IMG/VR virus record: IMGVR_UViG_3300017971_000076
Coordinates: 1-51,528 of that record
From: a virus
Length of the DNA: 51,528 nt
Strand: one strand, 5' to 3'
Numbering within the stretch: position 1 is the stretch's first letter; every line of letters starts with the position of its first letter. The notes under the pieces were generated by a model, which saw only the letters and a list, made by a program, of their open reading frames with translations, ran no database searches and was not told where the DNA came from. A program made the translations under genes and the position numbers. This document shows positions 2,149 to 39,854 of the stretch, in pieces.

Positions 2149-2723
2149 TGAACAGAGAGCGATGGCTGACGGAGTGCGTTAGCGCGCTTCGTCCAATGTT
2201 CCGCGAAGCTGGACAGCCGATCCCCAAGAAGATCCGGGTCTCGTGCTCGTGGCCGTCCAGAGGGGCGCGGAAGTTAGACGGAGAGGCGTGGAGTAACGAG
2301 CACAGCCAGGATGGCTGTTTTGAGATTTTCATCTCGCCACTCTTGGACGATCCGATTGAAGTGTCGGCCGTGCTCGTTCACGAGCTAGTACACTGTGCGG
2401 TCGGATTTAAGGAAAAGCACGGCAAGCGCTTCGGCGCCCTGGCGCGGGCCGTTGGGCTTGAGGGAAAGACGGCCACTTCGGTGGCCGGTAGCGAGCTGAA
2501 AGCCGGGCTGAAGGAAATCGCCAAAGGGATCGGCCGGTATCCACACGCCCGGCTTGCGTATGCCGAGGACGATGGAAAGAAGCAATCAACTCGCATGAAG
2601 AAGCTGTCATGCCAGGACTGCGGGTATACAGTGCGCACGACGCAGAAGTGGATTGAAGTCGGGCTCCCGGTGTGCCCGTGTGGCTCCACCTTGTCTCCGG
2701 AGGACTTAGAGGAGGGGGAATAG
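2148..2723 (+). CDS. SprT-like zinc metalloprotein
   Basis: A 191-residue protein with HELVHCAVGFKEKHGKRF: the HExxH zinc site at 78-82 and a third likely ligand at H91. This is the SprT/DUF45 pattern. A C-terminal zinc ribbon has Cys 155, 158, 176 and 178. SprT-like proteins (Spartan family) cleave DNA-protein crosslinks; phage relatives are mostly uncharacterised. The ATG at 2148 is coupled to the previous stop and preceded by GAGAAAGG; GTG 2145 is an alternative adding one residue. It is the last gene of the rightward operon and is followed by a terminator. Confidence 0.8.
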   Translation: MNRERWLTECVSALRPMFREAGQPIPKKIRVSCSWPSRGARKLDGEAWSNEHSQDGCFEIFISPLLDDPIEVSAVLVHELVHCAVGFKEKHGKRFGALARAVGLEGKTATSVAGSELKAGLKEIAKGIGRYPHARLAYAEDDGKKQSTRMKKLSCQDCGYTVRTTQKWIEVGLPVCPCGSTLSPEDLEEGE

Positions 2724-2912
2724 CTTCCCGCACTTCCCAGCCCAGTCCGCGTTAGGACAAACGTAGAACTGCCCGACGCGGACCATCAGGCAGCCGCATT
2801 CCTTGCACGCCCTAGGGGTCTCTCGATCTCTAGGGCGTGTTCTTTTGCTATCTCGGAACAGTAGGCGCTGCACCTCTCGATCAGGGTGCATGGTCGGCTG
2901 ATTCTTTTGCAT
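2706..2912 (-). CDS. Small zinc-ribbon protein overlapping the methyltransferase 3' end
   Basis: A 68-residue frame whose C-terminal half looks real: ACKECGCLMVRVGQFYVCPN followed by WAGKCGKLF, with four spaced cysteines forming a zinc-ribbon pattern. Its start is unclear, because ATG 2912 or 2891 would make it overlap the methyltransferase gene by over 100 bases, while ATG 2785 (TGATG overlap with that gene's stop) would lose the first Cys pair. It also overlaps the convergent SprT gene by 18 bases. It could be the last gene of the leftward replication operon. Confidence 0.45.
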   Translation of the reverse strand: MQKNQPTMHPDREVQRLLFRDSKRTRPRDRETPRACKECGCLMVRVGQFYVCPNADWAGKCGKLFPLL

Positions 2913-3547
2913 ACACGTAGAGTAGTTCCGGACCCCGCGAAAGGATCAATAACAGCGTTCTCTCGTAGATCGGCTGTCGAAAAACGGATACACCGCTCGA
3001 CAAGACCCTCGTGTAATTGCGTAGGGCACCAGGAGCGACGTTGCTTTGAGTTTCCAACCACTCTCGGGAAATCAAATACATCCCCCGGAACACGTCCTCT
3101 TGGATCGGCTCGTTTGTCGCCACATTTCTGTCTCCAGGACTGGACTCGGATTTGATCGGGATAGAACTTTGCATGTTCATCGTGCAGCAGAAGCAGTGGC
3201 CGGTAGTTGTTGCCGAGTTGCTTCTGTTGATGCTGGCCAAAGGTGAAGGTCTGCACACACTGCCGGACCCGGAGCCAACGGAAGAGGTCGAGTAGCCGGT
3301 TGACGACCGCGCCAACCTGCGCGAACCATCGTGCATTGTAGCTTACCCACACAATGTCTGCCGAGTGGATGAACCGCCTCAACCAAGACTCGAATAGGTT
3401 AATGTATTCCCAGTCGGGCAGCTTGTCGTTCCCCTCTGTATACTTCAGGCCGATGTTGTCCGGCGGGTCCGCGAACAGGCAGGTGGCGTGCGGGAGGGTC
3501 GGCAGAACCTCCAGGCAGTCGCCGTGAATTAGGCGGTTGTTCGTCAA
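2786..3547 (-). CDS. DNA adenine/cytosine-N4 methyltransferase, beta class
   Basis: A 253-residue S-adenosylmethionine-dependent DNA methyltransferase. The catalytic motif IV comes first (ADPPDN, residues 26-31) and the cofactor motif last (DPFAGSGTT, 201-209), the order of beta-class N6-adenine or N4-cytosine enzymes. The usual DPPY is DPPD here. The segment LHEGLVERCIRFST (motif X-like) precedes DPFAGSGTT, as expected. The only possible start is TTG 3547, seven bases after GGAG and overlapping the MazG stop (TTGA). There is no restriction endonuclease nearby, so it is an orphan phage enzyme that may protect phage DNA. Confidence 0.88.
   Translation of the reverse strand: MTNNRLIHGDCLEVLPTLPHATCLFADPPDNIGLKYTEGNDKLPDWEYINLFESWLRRFIHSADIVWVSYNARWFAQVGAVVNRLLDLFRWLRVRQCVQTFTFGQHQQKQLGNNYRPLLLLHDEHAKFYPDQIRVQSWRQKCGDKRADPRGRVPGDVFDFPRVVGNSKQRRSWCPTQLHEGLVERCIRFSTADLRENAVIDPFAGSGTTLRVCKRISRPCTLIERCSAYCSEIAKEHALEIERPLGRARNAAA
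2806..2846 (+). terminator. Rho-independent terminator of the rightward operon
   Basis: Perfect 10-bp arms CACGCCCTAG (2806-2815) and CTAGGGCGTG (2830-2839) enclose a 14-nt loop, followed by TTCTTTT. It lies 83 bp after the last rightward gene and inside the 3' end of the convergent methyltransferase gene. Confidence 0.75.
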
Positions 3548-36732: not shown

Positions 36733-37037
36733 TATCGCCTCTTTTTCTTCTTCGGTTTTTTTGATTGCGTCAATGCTTCAGTCAGCTTATCCAGGCCGGT
36801 TTTCGGCATTAGTCGTCCACGACGCGATTCTGCCGCCTTGCTTCGCTTCTGTGCCGGGGTCAACGGTTTCGGCTTCTGACTCGATTTACGAGCTTTCCTA
36901 ATGGCCCTCATCGACTGCGACATCTCTTGATTGACCCGCACACGATCCTCGATACGTTTCTGTTCCTCTGGCGTCCTGCGCATGATCGTCGCAGCATTGA
37001 TTGTCTGCTCGCTGTATTTCTTCTTTTTTTTAGCCAC
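36732..37037 (-). CDS. Small, strongly basic protein
   Basis: A 101-residue protein with Lys/Arg runs at both ends (MAKKKKKYSEQ, KKPKKKKRR) and a helical middle rich in Gln, Arg and Lys. It likely binds DNA or is a packaged internal protein; no family recognised. Start is GTG 37037 overlapping the upstream TAG (TAGTG), with GAGGAAA upstream. Confidence 0.6.
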   Translation of the reverse strand: MAKKKKKYSEQTINAATIMRRTPEEQKRIEDRVRVNQEMSQSMRAIRKARKSSQKPKPLTPAQKRSKAAESRRGRLMPKTGLDKLTEALTQSKKPKKKKRR

Positions 37038-37822
37038 TAAATCGTTTCCTCTTTGTACGTGATTGGATACGTCCCGCCCGTATCGCCGTGCCTCACGCGC
37101 CCATCCCCATCGAATTCACGGTGGCCCATGTGCCCAAATGAGGCTGCGCCACGTTTTCGGTCGTCCATGATTGCGTTCAATAACATCCGCTCGTACATCG
37201 CCGTATGAATGGACGCCTCGTCATTCATTTGCTGCTCAGCGACGGCCAGGCAACTCTCAATCAGCAACTCACTGATCGCCATCCCGCCGAGGGCATACGG
37301 GTACGAATCAGACAGCGCACCGGAGTACGCCTCGTACTTGTAGGACAGCACGTAATCGCTATCCGGCTCAGGCCAGAACAGCGCCTCCCACCGTTGCCCC
37401 GCCGTCCGATCCTCCGCCTTTCGGCGAACCGCCACGTACTGCGGCGGCCCAGTACGATCGTAGATGGACCGCATCTCCAGTAGGTCGTCAAGGCTGACGC
37501 TCTTGACTGGAGCATAGTGCGTATCCGCTGCGAAGTTCATCTTGCCGATCAGGCGATGAAAATCGTCCGGCAGATCGTAATCGTAATCATCATCCGCGAG
37601 AGTCAGTGTCGTAGACGGCCGCACCCATGACCACTCATACCCGAGCACCCTTGGATCGCTGCTCACCGGGAAATAGACGCGCCGAACGCCGGACTGCACG
37701 ATATCTTCGACTTCAGTAGCCTGATCGCTTGTCCAGTCACCGATCGTTCGACCATACCCAAGGAAGAAGCCAGTACGCTGCTTCAGTTCCGTCCAGCCAA
37801 CACTTAAACCCGACTCTGCCAC
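37037..37822 (-). CDS. Head-to-tail adaptor / T7 gp11-P22 gp4-like protein
   Basis: A 261-residue protein. Helical, with TSDQATEVEDIVQSGVRRVY, DYDYDLPDDFHRLIGKMNFA, and GMAISELLIESCLAVAEQQM. This fits tail tubular protein A/adaptor families of short-tailed phages, which ring the portal. It starts at GTG 37822, three bases after the 3' end of a tRNA gene whose GGGGG acceptor strand is the only Shine-Dalgarno-like sequence. Confidence 0.75.
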   Translation of the reverse strand: MAESGLSVGWTELKQRTGFFLGYGRTIGDWTSDQATEVEDIVQSGVRRVYFPVSSDPRVLGYEWSWVRPSTTLTLADDDYDYDLPDDFHRLIGKMNFAADTHYAPVKSVSLDDLLEMRSIYDRTGPPQYVAVRRKAEDRTAGQRWEALFWPEPDSDYVLSYKYEAYSGALSDSYPYALGGMAISELLIESCLAVAEQQMNDEASIHTAMYERMLLNAIMDDRKRGAASFGHMGHREFDGDGRVRHGDTGGTYPITYKEETI

Positions 37823-37825
37823 AAA

Positions 37826-37898
37826 ATCCCCCGCGAGGACTCGAACCTCAAACCTAGTAGTTACAAACCACTTGCTCTGCCTGTTGAGCTACAGGGGA
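37826..37898 (-). tRNA. tRNA-Thr (anticodon TGT)
   Basis: A 73-nt cloverleaf on the minus strand: acceptor TCCCCTG/CGGGGGA (one G-T), D arm GCTC..GAGC, anticodon stem AGTGG/CTACT around TTTGTAA (anticodon TGT), 5-nt variable region, T arm TGAGG TTCGAGT CCTCG, and discriminator T. No CCA encoded. It would read ACA (Thr) codons. It lies inside the structural operon between a capsid-associated gene and the adaptor gene. Confidence 0.93.
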
Positions 37899-37904
37899 CC
37901 ACCA

Positions 37905-37941
37905 GGGCCCTCCGGGCGAAGAGAGAAAACCCGGAGGGCCC
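37905..37941 (-). promoter_or_regulatory. 12-bp hairpin upstream of the tRNA
   Basis: GGGCCCTCCGGG (37905-37916) and CCCGGAGGGCCC (37930-37941) form a perfect stem with a 13-nt loop, with no T-tract after it. It sits between the capsid-associated gene and the tRNA, six bases from the latter. Possible roles are mRNA 3' end stabilisation after tRNA processing, or partial termination. Confidence 0.7.
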
Positions 37942-37960: not shown

Positions 37961-38767
37961 CTACGAAACCAGAACCACTCCATTCGCACCGCGAATGTTC
38001 CAACTACCGGCAACCCATTCCAAGACGCACTGGTCGCCCACGCCGCCAAGTTCAAGGCCATCCAGGTCTTGAGTGCCGTCCGCCGGCTCGTTGCCGTCGT
38101 CGTTCTCGATATCGATACGAGCCTCGTTACTCGTCACAGCCGTGGTGATAATCTCGACCTTCTTACGAAGACCCTCGATCGTGCCGTCCACGATCTCCTC
38201 AGCCGGCGAGGCGGTCGAACAGGCCGCACCGATCAGGAGCGACGTACCACCGACCATCATCACGAACGCCGTGTTGTCGACCAGTTGGACGACTTCAACG
38301 CCACCGGACGGAGGACCCACCTGGAGCTTCGCGTAAACCAGCCCGGCGTCTGTCGAACGATCGACCGTCTGCATGGGCTGCGCAGAACCCTCGCCGTCCA
38401 GACCTTCGTACCGGAAGTAGCCCTGATACGAAGTGGTCACGTCGAACGTCAGGAGCCCCGTGCCGAGCGTGCAACTCGCCTTCGCGTAGATATTGCACAC
38501 GCTACCCGGTAGGTAGATTTCGATGAGTTGACCGCCAGTCACGGCGGCGTACTTGCGAGCCGCCACGCCAGCGAAATACTGCGCGTTAGTCGTACTCGGA
38601 AGCTCGACACGGTTGAACCGTCGACCGTCTTTAGCCGACGCCGTTCCGTAGTCGTAGTTATAACAAACGGCCTGACCCTCTTCCAGAGCGGTCGAACCAC
38701 CAAACCACACCCAAGCAGAGAACGTAGGACTCTGCTTTTCGTGGCCGTTAATCGCGTGAGAAACCAT
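37961..38767 (-). CDS. Capsid-associated structural protein
   Basis: A 268-residue beta-rich protein (starting MVSHAINGHEKQSPTFSAWV) with TSYQGYFRYEG, FVMMVGGTSLLIGAACS and a Lys/Glu helix. It follows the major capsid gene, which suggests a decoration or capsid-lining role; family not recognised. ATG 38767 is preferred over GTG 38770. Confidence 0.65.
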   Translation of the reverse strand: MVSHAINGHEKQSPTFSAWVWFGGSTALEEGQAVCYNYDYGTASAKDGRRFNRVELPSTTNAQYFAGVAARKYAAVTGGQLIEIYLPGSVCNIYAKASCTLGTGLLTFDVTTSYQGYFRYEGLDGEGSAQPMQTVDRSTDAGLVYAKLQVGPPSGGVEVVQLVDNTAFVMMVGGTSLLIGAACSTASPAEEIVDGTIEGLRKKVEIITTAVTSNEARIDIENDDGNEPADGTQDLDGLELGGVGDQCVLEWVAGSWNIRGANGVVLVS

Positions 38768-38819
38768 CACTTTACCTCATGGGTTGAATTCGCAAACTTA
38801 AAACGCACAGACCGTCAAA

Positions 38820-39854
38820 CTACGCCTTGTAGAAGACCGCCTGCTTCCGAAGGTCGGTGCAGACCATTTGCAACGTGGCGTCCAGGTCGACTCGGCGAAC
38901 CAAGTGCTTATTCGAGACCATATACGGCTTCGTCAGTTGATTCTGCCATCCGGCCATCACGCCAATCGCCAACGTCTTCCAATCCAGCATGTAAACCGGA
39001 TCGCCGGTATCGCTGTCCAGATACGGTGCGTAAGTTACCGGCGTCGACTTGAACGTCACCCGGCCGTCCTTACTAGCCAGATCGTTCCCGAGGTTCATGT
39101 TCTGCTTTTCCAGCAATTCCTCCATGATCCCGAGCACGTCGTCATTCGTGTAAATGCCGTTGCCCATGTTGGACAAATTCGGCACGGCGTGCGACACCGG
39201 AGAGCGGAAGCGCGTCTTGCGATGCCCCCTTCGCATGGAGCGAATAAGGTCCTCTTTCGCAATCGCAGTGTAGTCGTTCGACCAGTTCGCCCAGCGGGTA
39301 TAGGTGGTCGAGTCGATGTTGCCACGGCCATCCGAAAAGCCACTCGGGTTCTCAGCGTTGAAGCCCTCGGTCGCATTCCGAACGATCCAGTATTCCAGTC
39401 CATACGGCGTCCGCTCGTCCGTCGAGTCGTCCGGCTTACCCCATAGGAACTCTTCCAACTTCTCGTAAAACGAAACCATCATCCCGACGTAGCGGGTTTT
39501 GATCAAATTAACGATCGCGTGTCCGCCACGCTGGAACGCCTTCTCTCGCTGGTCGTAGATATAGTGTGCATTGACGTGACGCGGGGGAACGGTCCCCTGC
39601 TTCATCGTGTCCGTGAGCGAAGAGCCGTCCGTCTCGAACAACTGGACAGCCCGCGCACTATGGTTGTGATCCATCTGCGCGTCCCAACGCCAGTCGTCAC
39701 CACCATCAAACGTCTTGACATGCTTTTTCCACAACTCCCGAACCGCAACGTGGTCTTGCAGATCCGTCTGCATGTCCACGAAAGCGCCCTTTTTGATGAG
39801 GTTCTCTTGCGTCAAGAGAACCGCATCGTCGATATCCGAATACGGAATCCCCAT
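38820..39854 (-). CDS. Major capsid protein
   Basis: A 344-residue protein between scaffold and capsid-associated genes. Features expected of an HK97-fold capsid of short-tailed phages: N-terminal helix, QRGGHAIVNLIKTRYVGMMV, long helix near 120-140 (SFYEKLEEFLWG), VNAHYIYD, and DWKTLAIGVMAGWQNQL near the C-terminus. ATG 39854 follows AAGGGGCA. Confidence 0.8.
   Translation of the reverse strand: MGIPYSDIDDAVLLTQENLIKKGAFVDMQTDLQDHVAVRELWKKHVKTFDGGDDWRWDAQMDHNHSARAVQLFETDGSSLTDTMKQGTVPPRHVNAHYIYDQREKAFQRGGHAIVNLIKTRYVGMMVSFYEKLEEFLWGKPDDSTDERTPYGLEYWIVRNATEGFNAENPSGFSDGRGNIDSTTYTRWANWSNDYTAIAKEDLIRSMRRGHRKTRFRSPVSHAVPNLSNMGNGIYTNDDVLGIMEELLEKQNMNLGNDLASKDGRVTFKSTPVTYAPYLDSDTGDPVYMLDWKTLAIGVMAGWQNQLTKPYMVSNKHLVRRVDLDATLQMVCTDLRKQAVFYKA

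Follow-up and report, generated by a model that had tools for sequence, protein, structure and literature searches.

Can the acceptor stem of a phage tRNA provide the Shine-Dalgarno (SD) sequence of the gene that follows it, and what would this do to the expression of that gene? A tailed phage needs hundreds of copies of its capsid protein but about a dozen of its adaptor, and the two are encoded by neighbouring genes. In the virus record analysed here (the window, 51,528 bases in full), a tRNA gene lies at this junction. The minus-strand order is a scaffold-like gene, a putative major capsid protein, a head/decoration-like gene, a hairpin, tRNA-Thr(UGU), the trinucleotide UUU and an SU10-type adaptor gene. 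A sequence-only reading of this locus had proposed that the tRNA acceptor holds the SD sequence of the adaptor gene, and that production of the tRNA and translation of the adaptor are mutually exclusive on one transcript. The features of the junction are as follows.

38820 to 39854, minus strand: putative major capsid protein (weak match to PHROG 9953 major head protein, 1e-4; gene order conserved)
37961 to 38770, minus strand: head/decoration-like gene directly upstream, co-oriented with the adaptor gene, named by position and conserved in relatives
37905 to 37941, minus strand: 13-bp hairpin with loop TTTCTCTCTTC (-30.8 kcal/mol, z = -4.6), ending 6 nt upstream of the tRNA
37826 to 37898, minus strand: tRNA-Thr(UGU), canonical cloverleaf (ARAGORN, anticodon TGT; Rfam RF00005, 58.6 bits)
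37827 to 37832, minus strand: GGGGGA, 3' strand of the acceptor stem and SD-like sequence of the adaptor gene (anti-SD duplex -8.6 kcal/mol)
37037 to 37822, minus strand: adaptor gene, 261 aa, GTG at 37822 (Pfam PF24175 SU10_adaptor, 1.2e-12; start conserved in 54 relatives)

The scaffold-like gene, like the decoration-like gene, is named from position only, and the capsid protein is identified by a weak profile match. No family match was found for the decoration-like gene. Searches by tblastn against annotated phage records returned no matches. A separate contig (L001) with 99.985% identical DNA has the same layout. The tRNA of the window sits directly between co-oriented coding genes, as in tRNA punctuation.

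The tRNA itself is fully canonical. Its acceptor strands pair as UCCCCUG/CGGGGGA, an anticodon stem read from the sequence as AGUGG/CUACU closes the loop UUUGUAA, and it reaches the RF00005 family score with a 7-nt anticodon loop and U33. CCA is not encoded. Both ARAGORN and Rfam (37898-37826) place its end at 37826, as the sequence-only reading had done. This base is the discriminator U73, and it is followed by UUU (37825-37823) and then GTG (37822-37820). Therefore, the tRNA and the start codon do not overlap but are separated by 3 nt. ACG is the commonest Thr codon of this phage, and the tRNA may simply decode ACG/ACA.

The identity and the start of the downstream gene are well supported. 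The protein matches PF24175 with 49.1 bits (cutoff 27), as expected for an SU10-type adaptor. A set of 54 relatives was collected by way of the capsid protein; opposite the GTG at 37822 they have ATG, GTG or TTG in the alignment, and nearly all continue with (A/S)ES. The start codon proposed earlier is therefore upheld, and the relatives offer no other, which was one of two findings named in advance as fatal to the idea. The second was a separate promoter after the tRNA; a scan for consensus sequences found no promoter-like site between the hairpin and the adaptor gene. Many of the 54 relatives have an SD-like GGAG or GAGG 5-10 nt upstream of the adaptor start. In the window, the best anti-SD duplex within 20 nt upstream is formed by GGGGG (37832-37828), 5 nt before GTG, at -8.6 kcal/mol. 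This is the only strong anti-SD match upstream of the start, in agreement with the claim that CGGGGGA is the sole SD-like sequence. Such strong pairing is uncommon: among 765 other phage tRNAs, about 5% have an acceptor end at -8 or lower.

Because this SD lies in a helix, it is predicted to be poorly accessible. The mean unpaired probability of the SD region in the acceptor helix of the window is 0.11, and its predicted pairing in a stable stem is that of an RBS-sequestering structure. The predicted cost of opening the initiation region is 15.3 kcal/mol for the window, 13.0 for its relative L034 and 13.2 for the endonuclease start of a second relative, L002 (both discussed below), against a median of 9.7 kcal/mol in 52 relatives. 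The value for L034 is only moderately above that of relatives, and several tRNA-less relatives equal or exceed it. With the SD in the acceptor helix, the uncut transcript would also be a poor template. The idea of mutual exclusion therefore survives in part: the acceptor does hold the SD, but the site is predicted to be buried before any processing takes place. In this model the choice for the adaptor would be between 'folded and hidden' and 'cut and lost', rather than simply between cut and translated. Since the uncut transcript would be weakly translated and the cut one would lose the site, the reading we favour is that translation of the low-copy adaptor would be tuned down in relation to the capsid proteins, rather than controlled by an either/or switch.

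Comparison with related phages, which the sequence-only reading had suggested, shows that the same arrangement recurs, before the adaptor gene in L034 and before an inserted gene in L002/L019. In L034 (capsid 74% identical), an element called as tRNA-Tyr occupies the position of the window's tRNA, and its GGGGG is followed after 5 nt by the adaptor ATG. In L002/L019 (capsid 91%), a degenerate tRNA just under the gathering score (28.5 bits) directly precedes an inserted endonuclease VII-family gene (PF02945, 8.7e-23). In L002 this gene (2508-3008) lies downstream of the tRNA-like element and upstream of the adaptor gene, whose TTG start it overlaps by 8 nt. Its own start, ATGGCGGAA (MAE), resembles the MAE start of the adaptor, which suggests that the endonuclease gene took over an existing tRNA-SD-start junction.

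Neither of these elements is a tRNA gene by the features used here, and both are classed as tRNA-like only. The L034 element scores 35.8 bits, but it lacks U33, and its non-decoding anticodon arm consists of a bulged 6-bp stem and a predicted GUA triloop; when this element is folded in isolation, the structure of lowest energy differs from a cloverleaf. The L002/L019 element has a 6-nt anticodon loop and an A-A first acceptor pair, and in L019 a 5-nt D loop as well. Decay has affected the anticodon arm in both lineages, but the acceptor and T helices are retained. Across the window, L034 and L002/L019, compensatory changes preserve the pairing of these two stems, and the gap between discriminator and start is 3, 4 and 3 nt, respectively.

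The window, L034 and L002/L019 form one clade (support 99/94), whose sister, L052, is tRNA-less (97/95). A single gain is thus the simplest history, and by parsimony the tRNA was probably acquired once in this clade. The tRNA-bearing sample consists of three genomes from this one clade, and scans with the upstream gene, a hairpin-plus-T-arm pattern and the adaptor found no further tRNA-bearing members.

The hairpin upstream of the tRNA is ancestral and is terminator-like in many tRNA-less relatives. It had been described earlier as a 12-bp hairpin; it is real and just upstream (37941-37905), but its stem is one pair longer. A strong hairpin lies at most 90 nt upstream of the adaptor gene in 24 of 51 tRNA-less relatives, compared to 2 of 1020 shuffles. 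The loop is conserved and the stem compensated in relatives; among those lacking the tRNA, TTTCTCTCTTC or TTTCTCTTC is largely kept while stem sequences vary freely. A U-tract follows the hairpin in many tRNA-less relatives (L036, L062, L338-L340), and in L338-L340 the hairpin has the plain form of a terminator. The window hairpin does not have the immediate U-tract of an intrinsic terminator (its tail is TGGTGGTCCCCT), and the U-tract is absent from all three tRNA-bearing phages (2-3 T in 8). With such small numbers, the contrast between tRNA-bearing (0/3) and tRNA-less phages is suggestive only. Hairpins with loop TTTCTCTCTTC or TTTCTCTTC were seen after capsid-side genes in L021, L036, L046, L062, L088, L093, L338-L340 and others. 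Pairing of this pyrimidine loop with the GGAG-type SD of the adaptor gene is conceivable. Loci matched by the loop pattern only (L006-L012, L014, L016-L018) were ruled out as relatives on the basis of protein matching.

Capsid relatives sit in genome records of Verrucomicrobiota, Lentisphaerae and Kiritimatiellae (L115; MAGs L116-L119), which suggests PVC-group hosts for this group of phages. Cerasicoccus frondis (L115, NBRC 105381) carries a related prophage and is the sole cultured host-side proxy, not a known host of the window phage. In this bacterium, 30 of 32 sampled tRNAs encode CCA, a CCA-adding-type enzyme family is present, and no RNase Z was detected at the curated cutoff. Since the window tRNA has no encoded CCA, the proxy's tRNAs mostly encode it and no RNase Z reaches the cutoff there, 3' release of the window tRNA could be slow. 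The same genome has a dense array of tRNA genes, several of them low-scoring, over 2.6 kb (contig C3:105386-107980), which may belong to a mobile element.

The best explanation overall, which we hold at a little under even confidence, is a captured tRNA whose acceptor SD steps adaptor expression down. In this scheme, a single capture would have placed a tRNA gene in the short space that separates the terminator-like hairpin from the adaptor start, and the acceptor strand of this tRNA would have become the adaptor's SD sequence. Within the polycistronic transcript, folding of the tRNA would bury the SD in the acceptor helix, giving weak adaptor translation. Excision of the tRNA, presumably with cutting by RNase P, would leave a downstream mRNA that lacks the SD and begins about 3 nt before GTG, as well as a capsid mRNA that ends just past a stable hairpin. 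Cut or uncut, the junction would bring expression down from the high level of the capsid proteins to the low level of the adaptor, possibly serving stoichiometry. In tRNA-less relatives, the same step-down role could fall to the hairpin plus U-tract. A point against the scheme is that these two might suffice to set expression. A bolder version, which we regard as doubtful, is that a phage structural operon has adopted the tRNA for the control of translation. Its acceptor stem would then be under selection as SD, SD lock and processing site, with decoding lost in the sister lineages and the step-down role of the terminator-like hairpin replaced.

The arrangement could also be neutral, with a tRNA that decodes (or once did) inserted by chance before the adaptor gene, a G-rich acceptor that is SD-like by chance and is tolerated in a compact genome, and no regulatory meaning. 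An ORF of at least 60 aa begins within 0-7 nt after 33 of 765 sampled phage tRNAs, and these gene-abutting tRNAs show no enrichment for SD-like acceptors (-6 or lower in 2 of 33, compared to about 13% overall). The overlap could therefore be a coincidence that came with the captured tRNA, as would also suit the canonical structure of the window tRNA and its match to the commonest Thr codon. However, a purely decoding tRNA is not expected to retain the acceptor/T half alone, and L034 and L002/L019 keep acceptor, T stem and start spacing despite a degenerate anticodon arm. Because SD-like acceptors are not enriched before phage genes, this account keeps substantial weight, although we judge it to fall well short of likely.

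We consider two further accounts improbable. In the processing switch of the sequence-only reading, cuts by RNase P and at the 3' end would yield either tRNA or adaptor mRNA from each transcript; the 5' hairpin would then stabilise the end of the capsid mRNA. The complete RNase P-type acceptor/T stack and the 13-bp hairpin that ends 6 nt upstream of the tRNA are consistent with such a switch, and E. coli RNase P is cited as cutting polycistronic mRNAs (Alifano 1994; Li and Altman 2003, in PMC4919922). This account does not sit well with the lack of an encoded CCA in a phage whose proxy host mostly encodes it and has no RNase Z above the curated cutoff, nor with an SD predicted to be hidden before cutting. 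Alternatively, the element could be mainly transcriptional, with the hairpin a leaky terminator between the capsid genes and the adaptor and the tRNA a passenger. The hairpins with U-tracts in many tRNA-less relatives would fit, but a U-less hairpin, as in the three tRNA-bearing phages (2-3 T in 8), is a poor intrinsic terminator, and we think it unlikely that transcription is the main target.

A captured tRNA that steps adaptor expression down would share features with several known systems. T4 provides established cases of an SD sequestered on a polycistronic phage mRNA, with homing endonuclease genes and soc among them (PMC2988022). As in those cases (I-TevI, segB, mobE of Aeh1, soc), in which translation is lowered, the SD here is predicted to be buried in a stable fold of an mRNA that spans several phage genes, and homing endonucleases are frequent clients there while L002 has an endonuclease gene at this site. 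In contrast, the structure here is a tRNA acceptor stem, and so an RNase substrate, and no late promoter freeing the SD was found. tRNA punctuation of polycistronic transcripts is known, in the sources consulted, from mitochondria, where coding genes are likewise directly separated by tRNAs whose removal would set the ends of the mRNAs; here excision is putative, and the ribosome-binding site of the next gene is itself part of the tRNA. RNase P acts on bacterial operon mRNAs (his and others; Alifano 1994 and Li and Altman 2003, as cited in PMC4919922), and cutting between genes could set relative expression in both situations; unlike those mRNAs, the junction here contains a real tRNA gene. 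Compared to the intrinsic terminators formed by hairpin and U-tract in L036, L062 and L338-L340, the window, L034 and L002 have a tRNA in place of the U-tract. A limited literature search turned up no account of an acceptor stem that acts as an SD, which is weak evidence of novelty. If true, a tRNA acceptor stem that doubles as a ribosome-binding site would be a compact means of setting the capsid/adaptor ratio, and some phage tRNAs and pseudo-tRNAs would have a reason to exist other than decoding.

tRNAs abutting phage genes are common, and overlap with an SD is not generally enriched. Since less selected tRNAs show no enrichment for SD-like acceptors, we claim no general class. In a GGAGG-acceptor-ATG pattern scan, which by design selects for ATG, 65 of 80 fetched loci among the matches listed were true tRNAs, 15 of them with an ORF of at least 60 aa. 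Other viruses thus have GGAGG acceptors just before ORFs, among the listed matches of this ATG-selected scan. Permissive ARAGORN searches over all intergenic regions were too noisy to use. Viral tRNAs with a GGAGG acceptor directly before an ORF include those of L142, L166, L178, L193, L205 and L212, as well as those of L146, L151, L201-L204, L210 and L214. Among the GGAGG-acceptor viral tRNAs, a family of ORFs of about 52 aa (e.g. MNLENEIKDILFEIGKEIKVHKLID) recurs after tRNA-Thr(UGU).
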